Position numbers and translations under genes: made by a program
From: a virus
Length of the DNA: 24,153 bases
IMG/VR virus record: IMGVR_UViG_3300048105_000079
Span: 1-24,153 of that record
Direction: 5' to 3' (one strand)
The notes under the pieces: model-generated
The model's input: only the letters and a program-made list of their open reading frames with translations
Told to the model about the DNA's origin: nothing
The model's database searches: none
Shown: positions 3,873-21,866 of the stretch, piece by piece
How positions within the stretch are numbered: the first letter of the stretch is position 1
Layout: each line of letters begins with the position of its first letter

Positions 3873-5525
3873 TTACTGAATTTTGTGTAATCCATCTACA
3901 TATACTTTTCCGTAGAACTCACCTCTTAACATTTTCTTAGCGTAACGTGTCATTACACCTTTTCTTGGAGTGAAGTTTTTCGGGTCATATACTAATGGAG
4001 TCATAATCAATGGAATGTATGGAGAATAAACTGCTCCAGTTTCAAGGAATTGTGTTCCTCTATATCCCATTAGGATTACGTTCTCTTTCATATAAGGATT
4101 CTTATATACTTGGAATCTGCTGTTCAATGAACCAATCTTAGTTACACCAAATGCGAACTGAGCATCACCATTATCTGCTGTACTAGCATATCCTGGGATA
4201 GATTCAATGATTGTTGCAACATCAGGAGATACTACCATAAAGTTAGCTCCACCTCTTAATGTTTTTTGGTGAATCTTATTAGATACACCTGCAACTACAG
4301 TTCCTAAAGTCTGGAACCAAGCACCTTGGTTGAATGCAGAAGCACTAGCACCTACTGATGAATAATCAGCGAATGCAGAACCATTCCACTCTCTACCTAC
4401 TTGTGCAGACCAGTAACCTGTTGATTTAGCACCAGAGATTAACATATCTAAAATCTCAAAATCAATTTCTTGAGAGATATACTCAGATAACATTGAAGTT
4501 AATTCAGCTTCAGCGTCAATTGAGTGATATGCATTTAAATCTTGTGCGAATTCAGGAGTCCATTGTGCTTTCAACTTACGTGTCTTAGCAACAATTGGTA
4601 AACTCTTCATTTCAACATTCAATTCAGGAATATCGATATCAGCTTCTGGGTTAGAAGTTAATTGAGTTCCTGTTGCTTCGAAGTCACCTCTTGAAATATC
4701 AGTTGGTTGTTTGTGATATTTTACCACTAACTCATCAGCAGCACCTGCAGTTGCAAATCCTGAAGTTTTTACTACGAATACGATATCATTACCACTCTCT
4801 ACAGTAAATTGTGGGTAGTTATCTGTAATCTCAGAACCTTCAATTCTAAATCCTCTGATTCCTTTGTCATCATATCCAGCGATAGAAGCTTTTGGTACAG
4901 CAACTTTACATATAGTACCTGCTACAATAGCAGCACCATTAGATGCAGTAAATTGAGTATCATAGTTTACGTCTGATAAAGATACAGATGATGTTAAGAA
5001 TACATTAGATGCAGCTGAAGCTCCTAATGTTTGTAGTGCAGATGTTGCATCGTTGATAGAGTATCCGAATCTACCTGCACCATATAAACCACCTGATGGG
5101 TCATTTGATGTATCAGTAATACCAAATACAGAATCAGCTTGTGAATCTTTACCACTACCTGTTGCAAATCCAGCTTGACCTGTACCATATTTGAAATCTA
5201 GATAAAATACTAGACCTGATGGTAAGTTCATTGGTTGTACAGATACGAAATCCTTTGCTACGATTTCACTAAAAATTCTTCTTACCAATGGTAGAGCTAC
5301 ACCAGCCCACTCTTCTGAATTTGCAGAAGTACCAGTAGAAGAAGCCTCTTTTACTAATTGTCTTGCTTGGTTTTCTAAAAGTGTTGCAACACCAGCTTTT
5401 TCAACTTCGTTGTCAATACCTTCTAAAAGACCGGTTTTTTCCCACTTACCAGCTAAAGCTCTTGTAGCTTCAGATAGTCTTGCGGTGTGAGAAGAACCTT
5501 CATTTAAAATGTTTTTTAAATCCAT
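3873..5525 (-). CDS. 23: Major capsid protein, T4 gp23 family
   Basis: This 550-aa protein forms the head shell; T4 gp23 is 521 aa. The N-terminal delta region (MDLKNILNEG, GKWEKTGLLEG) and the following WAGVALPLVRRIFSEIVAKD and LDFKYG segments match what is known of gp23 homologues. T4 gp23 is trimmed by the gp21 protease after a (L/I)-x-E site near residue 65. Here the equivalent site is LVKE60/A61, just before SSTGTSANSEEW, giving a mature chain of about 490 residues. The ATG at 5525 has GGAG seven bases upstream. The gene follows the scaffold gene by 28 bases and ends before a strong terminator, as expected for the most abundant virion protein. Confidence 0.96.
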   Translation of the reverse strand: MDLKNILNEGSSHTARLSEATRALAGKWEKTGLLEGIDNEVEKAGVATLLENQARQLVKEASSTGTSANSEEWAGVALPLVRRIFSEIVAKDFVSVQPMNLPSGLVFYLDFKYGTGQAGFATGSGKDSQADSVFGITDTSNDPSGGLYGAGRFGYSINDATSALQTLGASAASNVFLTSSVSLSDVNYDTQFTASNGAAIVAGTICKVAVPKASIAGYDDKGIRGFRIEGSEITDNYPQFTVESGNDIVFVVKTSGFATAGAADELVVKYHKQPTDISRGDFEATGTQLTSNPEADIDIPELNVEMKSLPIVAKTRKLKAQWTPEFAQDLNAYHSIDAEAELTSMLSEYISQEIDFEILDMLISGAKSTGYWSAQVGREWNGSAFADYSSVGASASAFNQGAWFQTLGTVVAGVSNKIHQKTLRGGANFMVVSPDVATIIESIPGYASTADNGDAQFAFGVTKIGSLNSRFQVYKNPYMKENVILMGYRGTQFLETGAVYSPYIPLIMTPLVYDPKNFTPRKGVMTRYAKKMLRGEFYGKVYVDGLHKIQ

Positions 5526-5553: not shown

Positions 5554-6606
5554 TTATTTTAAACCTGCTAGTTTTTTCCATCTAGCGGCCATATCATTAC
5601 CCTCAGAAATTATTTTCTTCGGTGCAGAACTCTTTGTTGCTTTTGAGGCATATCCTTCTTTTACAACAGTTCTTTTCTTTTTAGCAACGTTTAAGTTTTC
5701 TGCTAAAGTTGAGAATACTAATTTTACTTCTCTTACTGATGAAGTTCTGTCGAAGTTTTCTAAAACTTTAACCTTTTGGTTTTCGTTCAAGTCGAAAGTT
5801 CTGAATAATTTGTTAGTGAAAAGTAACTTAGCGTTAAGTAAATTAACTTCATTGATAGTTTTTTGTAAACTTTCAATAGTAGCATAAGCTTCTTCTAACT
5901 CATCATTTTCTTCAACTTCTTCTTCTTCGTTTACTTCTTCTTCAGATTCTTCAGAATCATCTTCCATCTCTTTTAAAGTTTTAATAACTTCGTCTAAATC
6001 GATTTCTTCTTCTTCATCCATATCATCTTCTTCAGCAACAGCTTCTTCTTCTTCTTCGTGATAGTTTTCATCAGCTGGAGCTTCTTCTTCTTCATCCATA
6101 TCTTCTTCTTCAGCCATTTCAGCTTCTAATTCAGCGATTACAGATTCTAAATCTAAATCATCTTCCTCTTCTTCATCCATGTCATCTTCTTCAGATACTT
6201 CTTCTTCAGATTCGTAAGTTTCATCAGTAGATTCTTCTTCTTCCATATCTTCTTCTTCAGACATTTCGTCCTCTTCTTCAGATACTTCTTCTTCCTCTTC
6301 TTTAACTTCTTCTTCTTCGTTGTGCTCTTCACCTTCTTCTTCAGTCAACTCATCATCGTTTTCGATATCAGATGAATCAGATGCACCATCAGTTGGTTCT
6401 GCGTTATCGCCTGAACCTAAATCAGTTGAATCTAAATCCTCATCCATCTCTTCATCAGCTTCTTCAGCTAATTTCGCAGAAATCATTGATTGGAGTTTTG
6501 GGGTAAAAGCTTCCTCTAAGGCTAATTTAGCGTTTGCTAGTGCAGTTTCTTTAACGGCTTTAGCATCAGCGATAGCTTCAGATAACAAATCTTTTCTATT
6601 TGCCAT
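5554..6606 (-). CDS. 22: Prohead core scaffold protein, T4 gp22 family
   Basis: This 350-aa scaffold fills the prohead and is destroyed by the prohead protease before DNA packaging. The N-terminal region (KDLLSEAIADAKAVKETALA, then AFTPKLQSMISAKLAEE) and the C-terminal end (MAARWKKLAGLK) resemble gp22 of marine T4-like phages. Between them, residues about 47-240 are an extreme Glu/Asp run with DMDEEEE units, followed by a predicted coiled coil (about 240-275). Candidate gp21 sites are LLSE10/A and IISE/G near the end. Position immediately before gp23 is the T4 order. The start has AGGAG upstream (AGGAGAACAATT-ATG). The long acidic tract is larger than I would expect in T4, and codes for a Ser-rich shadow frame on the other strand. 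Confidence 0.9.
   Translation of the reverse strand: MANRKDLLSEAIADAKAVKETALANAKLALEEAFTPKLQSMISAKLAEEADEEMDEDLDSTDLGSGDNAEPTDGASDSSDIENDDELTEEEGEEHNEEEEVKEEEEEVSEEEDEMSEEEDMEEEESTDETYESEEEVSEEDDMDEEEEDDLDLESVIAELEAEMAEEEDMDEEEEAPADENYHEEEEEAVAEEDDMDEEEEIDLDEVIKTLKEMEDDSEESEEEVNEEEEVEENDELEEAYATIESLQKTINEVNLLNAKLLFTNKLFRTFDLNENQKVKVLENFDRTSSVREVKLVFSTLAENLNVAKKKRTVVKEGYASKATKSSAPKKIISEGNDMAARWKKLAGLK
5890..6465 (-). repeat. Low-complexity acidic coding repeat in the scaffold gene
   Basis: Repeated GAAGAAGAAGAT-type codons encode variants of EEEDMDEEEE and SEEE. It is an imperfect coding low-complexity tract, not a tandem DNA array. Its length may vary between relatives by slippage. Confidence 0.7.
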
Positions 6607-7500: not shown

Positions 7501-9897
7501 TTATCCTATTTTCTTTAGTGAATGTGTTTCAGTTGCAATCCAATTCTTTTCAACACCAGCCATCTTAGCTGCTTTCTTAATAGCTTCAACTGTATTTCTT
7601 GCTTTTACTTTATACACATTCTTTTTAGATAGTTTAACACCACCAAGATTCATATCGGAAAATCTCATTTCCCAAGTTGAAAAACCTTCGTTGATTTTTT
7701 CTTCTTCTACTACTTCAGCTTCGTTTACTTTTTTATTCTTAACTGAATCCAACATCTCTTTTGCTGATACTTTCATCTTCATTAATTTAGATGATGGTAG
7801 TTCACCATATCCGAATGATTCATTTAGTAAAGAAGTAAGTTTTATTGATTTAGATTCGTTAGTAAATTCTTTTGCATTTTCTTTATCTTTTTTATCAACA
7901 CCTTTTACAGGATACTTTTTACCATCTACTTCGAATTCGCTATCACCATTTGCGATTGCTTTAGCTCTAGCAGCTCCGAATTCATTACCCTCTTCTAATT
8001 CATTGATTTCGTAATACTTTCCTAATACTTCACCAATCTCATCATAAGTTGATTCTAATCTTTGTTGTAGTGTTCCAACTTCTTTTAAAGTTTTCTCAAA
8101 TACTTTGAATGATTCATTCATTCTTTTTACGTGTCTACCAACTGTAATACCATCAAATGAACCTTCAGTTTCTTTAACCATATTCTTACCAGCAATTTCT
8201 ACCAATCCTCTGATTGATTCATACACTTTAGCTAATCCTTCTTTTCTGTATATTGATTCACCAAATTTTTTGTATGATTTAACTGCTTCTAAGAATGCCA
8301 TCTTTTGTTCATTACTCATCTCTGCAGATTCTTCATGTCTCTCATCATCGTTTTCTTTAACGAACGGAGTGTGAAATGGGTTTGAATAAACTCTACCACT
8401 TTCAAATGATTCTTTTAATATATTTTTTAGTTTCATTGTATTTCCCTTTGATTCTTTTATTTTTCTTTTAGATGATTCGTTTGCAGGTTTAGTCCACTCT
8501 CCATCATCACCTTTTTCCCAACCCCTAGATTCCATTTCATCATTATAAGCTTTTTGCATATCACCATAACTAAGTGCTTTGAAAGCGGCTGGCCCCAATT
8601 TCTTTTCTACTGCAGTTTTGATATAATAACTATCATTTTTATCTAAAGGTACTCGTTTTGGTTCACTCTTAGGTTCATCCTTTTTTGGTTCACTCTTAGG
8701 TTCTTCTTTTGGAGTACCATTGGTTTGTCTAATCATGTCTTTTAAATCACTTGCCATCTTTTCCAATTCTTCTTTTGGTCTTACATCTAAACCATCTTCT
8801 TCTGCTTCTTCTGGAGAATCGTAGTTTTCAGCTTCTTCAGCATCCATTTGTGCGTATTTTAAATCCTCTGTTTGACCTATAAGTTTTTTATAATCTTCAT
8901 CAGATATTTTACCTTCAAGTTTTTCAATTTCACTTTCGATATCATCTGCATAATATAACTTATCAAAATCTTTGGATAATTCAACTTTAGGTCCATCATT
9001 TTTAGGTTCATCCTTTTTAGGTTCTTCTTTTGAAGGATTTCTATTTGGTTCATCTTTTGCATCTGATTTAGCTTTTTCTATGTCATCCTTTGATGGTGGT
9101 ACGTGTTTAGATGGGTCAGCGTTTTTTACTTGATAAGTGTTCCCAGTCTTTTTATTCTTAACGTAAACATCTTCACTTAATAGGTCTGTTAGTTTCATAG
9201 TTCCCTCTATTTTTATTTCCATCATTTTCTTAGCCTCAGCTTCGATTTGTTTCTTAATCTTAGATGGAACTTTTTTATCGTAATACTTTATCTTACCTTT
9301 ATTATCAATGTGAGCTACATTTTTGTAATCACCCTTTTCTTCTTCGGCTTTATTGTAAATAGTTAATCCGTTTCCTTTACGAGCCATTCCGATATCGTAC
9401 TTAGCTTCGTTAACTACTGATTCATCAACTGCTGGTTTAATAAACATTAATCCAACTTTTGATTTAGGTACTTTTAATTTTTTGATTGCTAATAGTTTTG
9501 CATTGTAAAGGTCTTTAGCTTCACCTTTTTTAATTTCAATTTGCTTACCATTGTATCCAGCAATCCATCCTGCAAACTTTGATTCGTTTACATTATCTCT
9601 CATAGCCTTTGATAAAGTTTTGATATACTTTAATTCTTCTTTAGCACCTTTGTGTTTAGCGTATCTATCTAATCCAAAGTGTCCCATAATACCTAATGAT
9701 AAGTTTAATCTACCTTTTTTAGCATTTGGATACTTTCTACCATAAGGAGATGAGTTAAACCAATCAATCATAGCTTGTGCCATCTCTTTTGATAGTTTAA
9801 TTCCTTCTACTCTATCAGTATTACCTTTTACAACCTGTTTTAATCCACCGATTGCTGAGATTTCGTTGAGTGAGTTTTTTATATCAGTTAATTTCAT
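7501..9897 (-). CDS. Modular internal-head-protein candidate with repeated targeting-like leaders
   Basis: This 798-aa protein lies between prohead protease and scaffold. I do not recognise it as one family; it is a chain of modules. It opens MKLTDIKNSLNE, and similar units recur at residues 234-242 (MKLTDLLSE), 488-496 (MKLKNILKE) and 685-693 (IKLTSLLNE). Each resembles a T4 capsid-targeting leader ending in a (L/I)-x-E protease site. Other site-like borders are VNE164/A, IKE481/S, VNE726/A and INE737/G. Modules between them include an AKLLAIKKLKVPKSKVGL unit, an ARKGNGLTIYNKAEEEKGDY unit and Lys/Pro/Glu linkers (about 283-303 and 396-415). There is no membrane segment. The ATG at 9897 has AGGAG seven bases upstream, overlapping the gp21 stop. 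Inference: an internal polyprotein cut by gp21. Confidence 0.8.
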   Translation of the reverse strand: MKLTDIKNSLNEISAIGGLKQVVKGNTDRVEGIKLSKEMAQAMIDWFNSSPYGRKYPNAKKGRLNLSLGIMGHFGLDRYAKHKGAKEELKYIKTLSKAMRDNVNESKFAGWIAGYNGKQIEIKKGEAKDLYNAKLLAIKKLKVPKSKVGLMFIKPAVDESVVNEAKYDIGMARKGNGLTIYNKAEEEKGDYKNVAHIDNKGKIKYYDKKVPSKIKKQIEAEAKKMMEIKIEGTMKLTDLLSEDVYVKNKKTGNTYQVKNADPSKHVPPSKDDIEKAKSDAKDEPNRNPSKEEPKKDEPKNDGPKVELSKDFDKLYYADDIESEIEKLEGKISDEDYKKLIGQTEDLKYAQMDAEEAENYDSPEEAEEDGLDVRPKEELEKMASDLKDMIRQTNGTPKEEPKSEPKKDEPKSEPKRVPLDKNDSYYIKTAVEKKLGPAAFKALSYGDMQKAYNDEMESRGWEKGDDGEWTKPANESSKRKIKESKGNTMKLKNILKESFESGRVYSNPFHTPFVKENDDERHEESAEMSNEQKMAFLEAVKSYKKFGESIYRKEGLAKVYESIRGLVEIAGKNMVKETEGSFDGITVGRHVKRMNESFKVFEKTLKEVGTLQQRLESTYDEIGEVLGKYYEINELEEGNEFGAARAKAIANGDSEFEVDGKKYPVKGVDKKDKENAKEFTNESKSIKLTSLLNESFGYGELPSSKLMKMKVSAKEMLDSVKNKKVNEAEVVEEEKINEGFSTWEMRFSDMNLGGVKLSKKNVYKVKARNTVEAIKKAAKMAGVEKNWIATETHSLKKIG
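8434..8449 (-). promoter_or_regulatory. Possible internal ribosome site and ATG within the 798-aa gene (codon 488)
   Basis: AAAGGG stands seven bases before an in-frame ATG (8434-8436) that begins MKLKNILKE. Initiation here would give a separate 311-aa protein (7501..8436) with its own leader. It may be a relic of gene fusion. The Lys-Gly codons explain part of the match, so the evidence is moderate. Confidence 0.35.
8653..9051 (-). repeat. Two Lys/Pro/Glu linker repeats in the 798-aa gene
   Basis: Residues about 283-303 and 396-415 share KEEPK and PKKDEPK units. The DNA copies (around 8653-8712 and 8989-9051) are similar, suggesting a duplicated linker flanking the acidic helical segment between them. 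This fits modular assembly of the protein. Confidence 0.6.
9196..9207 (-). promoter_or_regulatory. Possible internal ribosome site and ATG within the 798-aa gene (codon 234)
   Basis: GAGGG stands four bases before an in-frame ATG (9196-9198) beginning MKLTDLLSE, nearly the same leader as the true N-terminus. Initiation here would give 565 aa (7501..9198). The Glu-Gly codons contribute to the match, so this could be chance or a fusion relic. Confidence 0.35.
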
Positions 9898-9907
9898 TTA
9901 TTATCTC

Positions 9908-10525
9908 CTAAATAGAACAAACACCATCAATTTCACAGATGATATCTCGTACTAATGTATTAATCTTTTTATATGAAGGTGTTTTTGCTTTTCCAACTAC
10001 CGATTCGTTCATAGGTCTCATAAATGCACCATGTGTTGATGGGTTTGATACAAAATCCCAACAAATTAAATCAAAATCATCTTCTACAGTAACAGTTTTA
10101 CCATTACTAGCTTCTTTTACAGAACCCATACCTCTTGAAGAGATACCAACAGTACAACCTGCCTCTAAAAGTTCTTTAAGGATGTTCCCTGCTGGAGTTT
10201 TAAGTACTTCTACCTTACCCATTACATCATCACCCTTCCAATATACTTCTCTGATGATATGTGAGGTATTTTTTAGTTCAACTACCGAAGATTCAGGATG
10301 GTCTAACTCACCAAAAGCCCTATTTTCTTTAATTTCTCTACCTTTGTATTTTTCCACTTCTCTTTCTAAGATTGAACGTGGATAAACTCTACCATTTTGG
10401 TTTTCAGCTTCAGCACGTTGTAGGACACCATTAACAATCAATCTACCATTGTTATCTTCCAATGATTCGTTGATTTGCCTCTTAGTCATAGTAAAAGGAA
10501 TTGTATCTATAAGTAATCTGCCCAT
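9908..10525 (-). CDS. 21: Prohead core protease, T4 gp21 family
   Basis: This is a herpes-assemblin-like serine protease (family S80) that cuts scaffold, capsid and internal proteins after (L/I)-x-E. Visible elements in the 205-aa protein are GELDHP with the candidate catalytic His76, GISSRGMG with the candidate Ser129 or Ser130, and WDFVSNPSTHGAF with Asp157. Gly/Arg/Pro-rich GRVYPR (45-50) is also typical. The true start is the ATG at 10525, which overlaps the stop of the 44-aa gene (TAATG); an in-frame TTG at 10537 is less likely. INE20/S may be a self-processing site near the N-terminus. The gene sits between the prohead-core candidates and the modular 798-aa protein, which is probably a substrate. 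Confidence 0.95.
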   Translation of the reverse strand: MGRLLIDTIPFTMTKRQINESLEDNNGRLIVNGVLQRAEAENQNGRVYPRSILEREVEKYKGREIKENRAFGELDHPESSVVELKNTSHIIREVYWKGDDVMGKVEVLKTPAGNILKELLEAGCTVGISSRGMGSVKEASNGKTVTVEDDFDLICWDFVSNPSTHGAFMRPMNESVVGKAKTPSYKKINTLVRDIICEIDGVCSI

Positions 10526-10659
10526 TATGCTCCCCAAACTTTACGTTTTCTATATAAATCAAACATGATTTGTGCTACTTCATATCTTATAAGTAGACGA
10601 ATATTCTCCAAATCTTTATTTGTGAGTTCTTCTTTTAATATTTTCTTTTTATCTATCAT
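10525..10659 (-). CDS. 44-aa conserved-looking small protein before the protease
   Basis: This short gene (MIDKKKILKEELTNKDLENI ... RKRKVWGA) starts at an ATG overlapping the stop of the 162-aa gene (ATGA) and ends overlapping the protease ATG (TAATG). Coupling on both sides argues that it is real. It is basic and probably helical, with an aromatic C-terminal end (FDLYRKRKVW). I recall similar very small proteins beside gp21 in cyanophages, but no function is known. A minor prohead-core or protease-associated role would fit its place. Confidence 0.8.
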   Translation of the reverse strand: MIDKKKILKEELTNKDLENIRLLIRYEVAQIMFDLYRKRKVWGA

Positions 10660-19580: not shown

Positions 19581-21866
19581 TTAAAAGTACATTAATCCTA
19601 ATATCTGATTTAATGATGCGAATGTACCAGTTAATTTATACGTTCCACCTTTGTATGTGAATACGATTCCCTCGTTTGGTACAATCTTATCTTTACCACC
19701 TACTGCGGCTAATCTTTCTAATTCCATTCTTAGTTTTTCAATCTTTTTAACATCACCACTTTTCTGAACTGCTTTCACAGTTTTATCTAATTCTGATTTC
19801 ATAGTTCTAAGTGCTTTATCAGGATTGACTGTAAGTGCTGAACTCATAAATGAAAGTACATCTGCTCCAACACCTAAGAATATATCTTCAAACTTTCTAA
19901 GGTTTTGTTTAGATATCTTTGCTTTATCCTGCTTATCTGTTTTGGTTGCCCAAGCTAATACTTTAGAATCTGAAATATTCTTTTTGTTTAATCTGAATGA
20001 GTTATCAAAGAATGCCCATCGTTTAACTAATCCCATTTTGGTTTTGTTATCTAATGTAGCTGGTGAATTCTTATCAACATATTGTTCCCACCATGCTTGA
20101 TGATAATCAGCTACACCATTAGAATCTTTTAGTTTAAATTCTTTTTGGATTTTATTTAACGCTGAATAGTATTTACCTTGTTGTTTTGAAAGTTCCGTAG
20201 ATTGTGGTAACTTAACTACAGGTGGTCCTTGGATTGTATAATTATCTTGTACATCTTGATTGATTTGTTTAATCATTCCAGCTAAAATTCTTGCTGCTGA
20301 TGTATCAGCTCCAATTGCTTTCCCATCCATATTATATTGCATTGTTCCGTGGAATACTAATAAAGGTTGTCCATAAGGAATTACATTTACTGATGTTGGG
20401 AATATAACTTCTATATTCATAAAGGATGAACCTTGATTGAATACTTTATCTCTTTGTGCTTTTGATAATGATTTGATTGCTTTAGATAAATCCTGCATAG
20501 CGAAATTGTATGCATCAGTTAATCCACCTCTACCTTGAAACTTAGATGCTACTCCACTAATATCCAATGCGTTTTCACCACTATTCTTTAGGTGTCCACC
20601 ATTACGAGCAGCAATTAAACCTTTATCATCTCTCCAACTAATAGCAAGTGCTTGTCCATCTGTTTTTTCTCTAGCGAATTCTAACTTACCATTTAATGCG
20701 TTTGATATAATTGTTTTTAAATCACCAAATGTTAGATTCATTTGTGTATCGAATGGGTGAGCCATATGTCCATATGCCCCACCTTCGGTAATCAATCCTT
20801 CTTTTATTATATTTTCTGGTGATTCTTCTTTCTGAGGTTCATTTTTAGAACTATCAATAGATTTTTCAGCATCTAAGAAATCAACTAACTTATATCCTAC
20901 TATTGTTGCTACTTTTGTAATATGTTTTGCCCAAGTTTTATATGCTTGTGAACCTTTTAAATCAATATATCTTTGTGATTGTGCATCTAAACCTGCAACA
21001 CCTGATGGGAAATATGATACTGGGTATTTATCTGGTATTCCACCATCAAATAAATCATATATAGTTTCTTCATCTGTACCTAATATATAATCAACTACAG
21101 TCCAACCTAATTTTTCTGCAGCTTCTTTTCCAACTGCTTTATATGATTTTGAATTACCATAATATGCACCTGGTCCATCATCAACAGTTCCTTTAGTAGT
21201 TGAAAGTGCACTACCTTCTGATATTATTTTATTAAAATCAAATGTAGATAAAAAGTTTTCCATCTTAGTGGATATTTTACCTAATCTATCTGTTATAAAT
21301 TTATATATCTTTGGATTAAACTTTCCATCATATGCTTTTTTGAAACCTTTCTTTTTAGAATCATCACTACCAAATGATAATAACTTTCTAACTTCAGTTC
21401 CACTAATCCCACCACTTTGAGCTGGTGCTACATAAACATATCCTTTTTCTTCGTATCCTTTTTCAATTCTATCAGGATGATATGGTTCAAAATACTTACC
21501 TTTTAATCGGTATCTATCTTTTTCACCAACAACAGTAATAAATGCTGTTTTATCTTTATTGAATTTACCTATAATTTCTTTGGGAGCGTATGGGTTTTTG
21601 ATTTGAACAATCTTAGATGCTGGAACTCCGAACATCTTTGTCATAATCATTTTCTTTTCGTTAAACTTAAATGGTGATTTTAAATTATCTGTTTTATTAG
21701 AAGTACCAATGTAAACATTATCTCTACCAAATTGTTTCACTAAATGTTCGTAAGTGGCATTATGCCCTTTATGAAAAGGTTGAAATCTACCAGCGTAAAC
21801 TACTACCTTTTTTTCTATTCCTTCAGTTAAGATTCCCTTAACCCACTCTTTAATTAGTTTTCCCAT
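19581..21866 (-). CDS. Nucleotidyltransferase - unknown domain - ligase-like (KxDG) fusion with targeting-like leader
   Basis: This 761-aa protein has three domains. Residues about 17-200 are a HxGH-type nucleotidyltransferase (NMN adenylyltransferase or cytidylyltransferase-like): GRFQPFHKGH (26-35) and ISGTEVR (154-160). Residues 219-355 are an unrecognised Trp/Tyr-containing domain. Residues 362-761 look like a covalent nucleotidyltransferase (DNA/RNA ligase superfamily): motif I KTDGQ (Lys401), RNGG (421-424), motif III-like NIEVIFP (Glu486), LLVFHGT, motif IV EGIVF (732-736) and motif V YKLTG (Lys744). A helical stretch of about 200 residues separates the early and late motifs, and no OB-fold follows. 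The N-terminus (MGKLIKEWVKGILTE/G) resembles a capsid-targeting leader, and ISE218/G, IKE356/G and ITE361/G mark the domain borders. Likely an RNA- or NAD-related packaged enzyme; substrates unknown. Confidence 0.85.
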   Translation of the reverse strand: MGKLIKEWVKGILTEGIEKKVVVYAGRFQPFHKGHNATYEHLVKQFGRDNVYIGTSNKTDNLKSPFKFNEKKMIMTKMFGVPASKIVQIKNPYAPKEIIGKFNKDKTAFITVVGEKDRYRLKGKYFEPYHPDRIEKGYEEKGYVYVAPAQSGGISGTEVRKLLSFGSDDSKKKGFKKAYDGKFNPKIYKFITDRLGKISTKMENFLSTFDFNKIISEGSALSTTKGTVDDGPGAYYGNSKSYKAVGKEAAEKLGWTVVDYILGTDEETIYDLFDGGIPDKYPVSYFPSGVAGLDAQSQRYIDLKGSQAYKTWAKHITKVATIVGYKLVDFLDAEKSIDSSKNEPQKEESPENIIKEGLITEGGAYGHMAHPFDTQMNLTFGDLKTIISNALNGKLEFAREKTDGQALAISWRDDKGLIAARNGGHLKNSGENALDISGVASKFQGRGGLTDAYNFAMQDLSKAIKSLSKAQRDKVFNQGSSFMNIEVIFPTSVNVIPYGQPLLVFHGTMQYNMDGKAIGADTSAARILAGMIKQINQDVQDNYTIQGPPVVKLPQSTELSKQQGKYYSALNKIQKEFKLKDSNGVADYHQAWWEQYVDKNSPATLDNKTKMGLVKRWAFFDNSFRLNKKNISDSKVLAWATKTDKQDKAKISKQNLRKFEDIFLGVGADVLSFMSSALTVNPDKALRTMKSELDKTVKAVQKSGDVKKIEKLRMELERLAAVGGKDKIVPNEGIVFTYKGGTYKLTGTFASLNQILGLMYF

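Follow-up and report, generated by a model that had tools for sequence, protein, structure and literature searches.

A putative prohead-protease-processed cargo polyprotein with nucleotidyltransferase and RNA-ligase-like domains in a T4-like phage

Gene locus and domain organization of P0001

The window, that is, the whole 24,153-nucleotide stretch of viral DNA analysed here, contains genes for the terminase, portal, gp21-family protease, scaffold, and major capsid protein arranged in T4 order (Table 1). A minus-strand ORF with an ATG start (21866..19581) encodes a protein of 761 aa, designated P0001. Its gene is flanked by a tail fibre/baseplate protein on one side and by small head-region genes on the other, and the large terminase, portal, gp21-type protease, acidic scaffold, gp23-type capsid protein, and PhoH follow downstream in that order. 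The protease gene lies approximately 9 kb downstream of P0001 along the direction of transcription, which agrees with an earlier interpretation made without database searches (the sequence-only reading), and its identity was confirmed by the Pfam match. The gp23-type capsid protein carries [LIV]xE sites close to its N-terminus (ILNE/G, GLLE/G, and LVKE/A), and no PHROG match was found for the gp22-like scaffold. PADLOC assigned P0001 to no defence family, with a single weak match in one relative. When a genome collection was scanned for the P0001 family, only four MAG contigs were obtained, most likely phage fragments, so the family appears to be phage-restricted. The ligase domain occurs widely in environmental phages; each of two scans confirmed more than 570 candidate stretches at the least.

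Table 1. Positions, strands, and supporting evidence of the features at the locus
Feature	Position	Strand	Basis
Capsid-targeting-like leader, residues 1-15 MGKLIKEWVKGILTE, predicted cut after E15	21822..21866	-	Homologue conservation
Nucleotidyltransferase domain (NadM/NMNAT-like), residues 16 to ~200	21267..21821	-	Pfam PF01467 (CTP_transf_like), PHROG 395
Internal second leader MENFLSTFDFNKIISE, residues 202-217, predicted cut after E217	21216..21263	-	[LI]xE before middle domain
Middle "DDGP" domain, residues 218 to ~342	20841..21215	-	Homologue alignment; 60 viral loci
Double site NIIKE356/G + GLITE361/G ahead of ligase domain, residues 354-361	20784..20807	-	Conservation in relatives
RNA-ligase-like covalent nucleotidyltransferase domain, residues 362-761	19584..20783	-	Motifs, model, Foldseek
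Third modular protein (probable), 659 aa	16566..18545	-	Several [LIV]xE/[GAS] sites; two separate genes in G001
gp21-type prohead protease (proposed processing enzyme)	9908..10537	-	Pfam PF03420 (S77) E=7.8e-35; PHROG head maturation protease
Second cargo polyprotein (probable), 798 aa, directly after gp21	7501..9897	-	Internal leaders; G001 alignment
gp22-like scaffold	5554..6606	-	Acidic, many [LI]xE sites, C-terminal KIISE/G; position between protease and capsid protein
gp23-type major capsid protein	3873..5525	-	PHROG 138 E=1e-72

The sequence-only reading had described P0001 as a packaged three-enzyme polyprotein that begins with a 15-residue leader of the T4 capsid-targeting type ending in ILTE/G and has a similar site at each later domain border. 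The leader was borne out (GILTE15/G16); it is conserved in homologues, and M1, L4, I12, L13, and E15 are invariant across 20 of them. The second site, ISE/G, is also present, but it had been numbered 218/219 and is correctly placed at E217/G218 (KIISE217/G218). The remaining two sites, IKE356/G and ITE361/G, were found at the domain border as described (NIIKE356/G357 and LITE361/G362). The picture of a polyprotein with domains bordered by these sites therefore stands, whereas "three-enzyme" was an overstatement, because no activity is known for the middle domain. The strict [LI]xE/G motif occurs four times in P0001, compared with 0.46 expected from shuffles (p ~0.0004), and the loose [LIVMF]xE/[GAS] motif occurs four times against 2.3 expected, which was not significant (p 0.2). 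Because of the latter result, the motif count within P0001 alone is not decisive, and conservation has to decide.

The N-terminal domain matched PF01467 with E=3e-7 and PHROG 395 with E=1e-13, and its nearest solved structures were NMNATs. The NadM-type motifs GRFQPFHKGH and ISGTEVR are present in P0001, and the S-G-T and R do not vary across 38 relatives. The curated NCBIfam NMNAT cut-offs were not reached (32 bits vs 127 for PRK01153 and 29 vs 181 for TIGR01527). Since the domain is NadM-like but falls under these cut-offs, its substrate is not settled; NMNAT activity, inferred from these comparisons, has about an even chance of being correct, and an NAD-related function of this cargo, likewise inferred, is probable. 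In the middle domain, the DDGP motif was invariant, and no match to a known family was found. AlphaFold on full P0001 (20 sequences) gave a pLDDT of 55 outside the nucleotidyltransferase, so there is no usable model of the middle domain.

The C-terminal domain contains the ligase motifs EK401-T-D403-G404 (KTDG), E486 (NxE), E732-G-I-V-F, and Y-K744-L-T-G. Among 91 relatives, motifs I (KxDG), III, IV, and V were invariant or nearly so, the last two taking the forms EG(I/V)VF and YK(L/F)TG. The AlphaFold model of this domain had a pLDDT of 90, with residues 360-366 (TEGGAYG), which hold the last site, disordered. In the Foldseek search against the PDB, RNA or DNA ligases made up most of the best 31 matches, which were weak (best E 1e-3, TM 0.2-0.25), and the best neighbours were a fungal tRNA ligase, archaeal RNA ligases, and T4 Rnl1 and Rnl2; sequence profiles of the domain gave only chance-level matches to the PDB. 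RNA ligase activity is inferred from these data and is the assignment we favour, with some reserve. In one relative (L104; IMGVR_UViG_3300033182_000581), a sequence ending in VNGILVHN, which resembles an intein C-terminus, interrupts the ligase at the catalytic EK/TDG, and the two ligase parts are in separate open frames.

Conservation of border motifs among relatives

Relatives were drawn from IMG/VR and three phage records, and 304 ligase-bearing ORFs were dereplicated to 93. The distance between the conserved nucleotidyltransferase and ligase domains ranged from 30 to 1,259 residues. In 85 of 92 dereplicated relatives, an [LI]xE/[GASN] site was located in the 25 residues preceding the ligase, compared with 2% of random windows taken from the ligase interior; the form [LI]xE/GG was found in 83 of the 92 and a double site in 55. 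The middle domain was preceded by [LI]xE in all 36 relatives that have it (31 with a strict P1'), and the stretch before it was usually M-led and amphipathic. Before the nucleotidyltransferase, [LIVF]xE was present in 61 of 63 proteins (random, 31%) and [LI]xE in 54 of 63 (random, 6%). Every one of the 72 proteins having both the N- and C-terminal domains contained at least one [LI]xE site between them.

The distribution of the sites within the proteins was also uneven. In the variable middle region, 219 sites were observed vs 70 expected (3.1 times enriched), whereas the sites were depleted within the ligase domain (30 vs 69 expected; 0.43 of expectation) and the nucleotidyltransferase domain (3 vs 15.6 expected; 0.19). 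The ends of homology blocks in the variable region fell within three residues of a site at approximately 2.7 times the rate of random positions. The conserved element is [LIVF]xE; the P1' glycine of P0001 is not general, with D, A, Q, E, N, S, or G at this position after the leaders. An alignment of homologues had been suggested as a check on the sequence-only reading, and its outcome was favourable: the sites are kept at the borders though the sequence upstream of each changes, so the pattern that would have refuted the reading, namely domains conserved without their borders, was not seen.

These results bear on whether the chain is cut internally or only at its start. Leader-only removal, with the domains staying joined and the internal [LI]xE motifs being either a by-product of linker composition or relics without use left by gene fusion, has some support. 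T4 Alt and the IPs lose mainly terminal pieces (PMC9026906), and the internal sites could be relics because the modules keep leaders from their separate-gene state. In addition, the site directly before the ligase was lost in 7 of 92 relatives (L288, L314, L318, L319, L258, L232, and L245), in which the E is replaced by M or C and the next [LIV]xE lies approximately 20-50 residues upstream. The ligase GG stays in these seven without a preceding E and is therefore probably kept for a reason other than cutting. However, relics would decay, yet no exception was found before the middle domain or between the end domains; the motif is depleted inside folded domains; and gp21 does cut internal sites in T4 gp22, gp67, and gp68 (PMC9026906). 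We therefore regard leader-only removal as unlikely, although not negligible. Cutting at the internal borders has not been observed, but it is supported, as far as comparative sequence evidence can go, by the border conservation, the avoidance of sites inside domains, and the gene-fusion history of the modules, and separation of the domains inside the head is inferred to be likely.

Leader-tagged modules and virion homologues

The modules of these polyproteins also occur as separate genes. Where the ligase is a standalone gene, its product begins with a leader whose end falls at E/GG or immediately ahead of it, namely MIRLKKLLSEVLLNE/GG in L203, MIRLHKILNEVLLKE/GG in L196, and MKFLKSYEEFLNENLILE/GG in the 429-kb phage L084. 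One module starts with MGDLEKIDTYADKQ in L072, where it is part of a polyprotein of 1,272 aa, but forms a gene of its own, starting with MGDLQKIDTFADKQ, in L203. DUF5661, which is internal in L072, L031, and L041, has its own gene in L084, close to that of the ligase and with the leader MEFVKTYLEFINE. In L099, there is no N-terminal domain, and the middle domain comes after the leaders MKQFIKQTINKILIE/S and SIIEDFLKSIDMSSLINE/A. The leaders of the standalone modules are close to the T4 IPIII capsid-targeting sequence; T4 IPII and IPIII start with MKTYQEFIAE/A. In L084, 23 genes matched the leader pattern (mostly MKYIxxYxEFLxE) vs 2.4 expected by shuffling, and the leader-tagged genes include a PNK3P 3'-phosphatase and a metallopeptidase. 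Approximately 20 genes share MKYIxxYxEFLxE in the 429-kb phage G006 (L320-L341; IMGVR_UViG_3300025030_000039), several of which encode leucine-rich-repeat proteins, and this gene set is probably a readable list of head cargo.

Two further proteins in the window probably have a similar organization. The 798-aa protein has the internal Met-led leaders MKLTDLLSE and MKLKNILKE/S and also IKLTSLLNE/S, and its part after MKLKNILKE/S shares 69% identity with a separate G001 gene that starts with MKNLKELLNE/S; the third modular protein corresponds to two genes in the same genome. The counterpart after gp21 is 325 aa long in G001; in the isolate Mel-JY01, a Microcystis phage, approximately 155 aa are encoded by the ORF that follows gp21. 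Mel-JY01 also has a fused nucleotidyltransferase-ligase of 639 aa, in which NNNIIAE is followed by GGLGGH.

Modules of CCA-adding enzymes were found in three polyproteins of different phages. One of the three, a 2,463-aa phage protein (L157:10153-17541, minus strand), combines P-loop kinase/zeta-like, CCA-adding + HD, nucleotidyltransferase, DDGP, and ligase modules with [LI]xE borders. The presence of CCA-adding and P-loop kinase-like modules together with the ligase points to RNA repair, most likely of tRNA. It could be proposed that the cargo is chiefly a structural or assembly filler of the core with degenerate enzymes, as T4 has very abundant core proteins (PMC9958956) and the middle modules vary freely among relatives. 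Nevertheless, both end domains keep their catalytic motifs across 35-45% identity, and modules such as the CCA-adding enzymes and PNK3P are enzymes, which leaves this proposal with hardly any credibility.

No proteomics exist for the ligase-bearing family, and the homologues known from virions are distant and share only the nucleotidyltransferase domain. S-SCSM1 ORF91 (PMC9602691) and S-CREM2 ORF154 (PMC10665884) were found in virions by mass spectrometry, the latter report also citing S-SZBM1 and S-CBWM1, and carry-over of these NMNAT/cytidylyltransferases was not excluded by the authors. The S-CREM2 cytidyltransferase matches PHROG 395 (E=2e-59), as does the N-terminal domain of P0001, and S-SCSM1 ORF91 is its homologue. 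Both start with a leader, MKSFLQFLKE/A on ORF91 and MKNFSSFLTE/A on ORF154, of which the portions of PMC9602691 and PMC10665884 that were consulted contain no mention. Related leaders were present on the MS-detected kinase, SAM hydrolase, Cas9-like protein, and ORF13 of S-CREM2. In this phage, the T4-type leader was found on 5 of 13 MS-detected non-structural proteins vs 1 of 52 others (p=0.0008), these genes coming from two genome regions only. The T4-type pattern (an aromatic residue and then [LIVM]xE) was taken from IPII/IPIII and was picked after the result of a broader pattern; the general leader expression with fixed P1' residues gave no significant difference on S-CREM2 (p 0.098).

These observations can be weighed against the idea that P0001 is an unpackaged late intracellular fusion enzyme of NAD or RNA metabolism whose [LI]xE motifs are structural features of domain edges. 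Phages do possess NAD and RNA repair enzymes that are not packaged (PMC7824862), and the P0001 family is without virion data. On the other hand, the N-terminal leader resembles the T4 targeting sequence and also fronts unrelated modules, the gene sits in a head and packaging cluster, and the NadM-Nudix protein of phage XbC2, encoded in a metabolic gene cluster, starts directly with its domain and has no leader, whereas the virion-detected homologues have one. An unpackaged enzyme is thus improbable. Packaging of P0001 is inferred to be very likely, as is, with equal confidence, cutting of its leader, and the leader-based route is strongly supported by the comparison with relatives.

Proposed processing and delivery

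The leader, the conserved border sites, the unfused leader-tagged versions, and the gp21 gene in the locus are all present in the DNA itself. Packaging, cutting, injection, and enzymatic activities have not been shown, and the idea of a protease-cut packaged cargo put forward in the sequence-only reading is supported to the extent that genomic comparison allows. We consider it probable that P0001 serves a T4-like phage as an internal-head cargo polyprotein processed by gp21; that it is packaged, cut, and ejected, and that its domains are active, is inferred. The N-terminal leader would act as a capsid-targeting sequence that carries the P0001 chain into the scaffold core. Shell closure would then activate the gp21-type protease. 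By cutting behind the [LI]xE of the leader and of every border, the protease is predicted to release the NMNAT-like nucleotidyltransferase, the middle domain, and the RNA-ligase-like enzyme as separate proteins inside the head, and these would be ejected together with the DNA. The delivered enzymes could act prior to any phage gene expression; this early action is an inference by analogy with the T4 IP and Alt precedents (PMC9026906, PMC9958956). The ligase, accompanied in some relatives by the CCA-adding and P-loop kinase-like modules, may repair RNA, most plausibly tRNA cut by host defences, and the nucleotidyltransferase would probably support NAD. A counter-defence role, also inferred, is possible but falls somewhat short of an even chance. 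The modules may be exchangeable cassettes that arose by fusion of neighbouring leader-tagged cargo genes.

T4 gp21 recognizes L/I-x-E, and the function of the leader in T4 has been described (PMC9026906). T4 IPI, IPII, IPIII, and Alt have a leader ending in [LI]xE that is cut by gp21, in common with P0001, for which cutting is predicted; a gp21-type protease in the locus, a late head gene cluster, and predicted ejection with the DNA are also shared. In the comparison with Alt made by the sequence-only reading, the route holds, but nothing suggests ADP-ribosylation. Unlike the T4 internal proteins, which have one domain per chain, P0001 has several unrelated domains with a site at every border, and these include RNA-ligase and NMNAT-like enzymes.

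The nearest published concept is that of the polyvalent proteins (Iyer et al. 2017, PMC5512222), in which unrelated catalytic domains are combined in one protein thought to be injected; P0001 has two unrelated catalytic-type domains in one polypeptide, its packaging being inferred. That article already drew the analogy with viral polyproteins, and in the sections consulted no protein with the P0001 architecture was found described. Processing of polyvalent proteins is thought to depend mainly on an embedded zincin metallopeptidase or a fused assemblin-like peptidase, whereas a separate gp21 is the proposed protease for P0001 and leader-like border motifs are the sites. An embedded peptidase or ArdC-N domain, common but not universal in polyvalent proteins, was not found by Pfam in P0001 or the relatives scanned. 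Polyvalent proteins were reported to be scarce in cyanobacterial lineages, and no association between their 2H domains and ATP-grasp RNA ligases was reported (PMC5512222). Jumbo phages encode an RNA ligase, kinase/phosphatase, CCA-adding enzyme, and NMNAT directed against host RNases and NAD-depleting defences, but the description of these repair and salvage enzymes is one of individual genes, without packaging, leaders, or processing by a protease (PMC7824862). No description of the architecture or processing of P0001 was found in the literature searched.

More generally, and only tentatively, in-frame fusion of leader-tagged modules into one targeted chain that is cut in trans by the prohead protease may be a general head polyprotein strategy, providing a ready-made tRNA-repair/NAD kit that acts before phage expression and blunts tRNA-cutting and NAD-depleting defences. 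If so, bacterial viruses would have their own version of the polyproteins known from eukaryotic viruses, with the capsid protease doing the processing, and the leader together with [LI]xE borders would give a simple sequence rule for the head contents of T4-like phages. It would also lead one to expect RNA repair enzymes to enter the host together with the genome.

The virion NMNAT/cytidylyltransferases of the cyanophages S-SCSM1, S-CREM2, S-SZBM1, and S-CBWM1 resemble P0001 in matching PHROG 395 (in the one tested) and in having a T4-type leader (in both examined), and differ in having no ligase domain in those examined. The same strategy, if true, would suggest that they are real cargo, though carry-over remains possible. 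Separately, the virion-reported Cas9-like protein of S-CREM2 (ORF12; L343:7704-10313, minus strand) may be packaged cargo, because it carries the T4-type leader LRFASFMAE/A.
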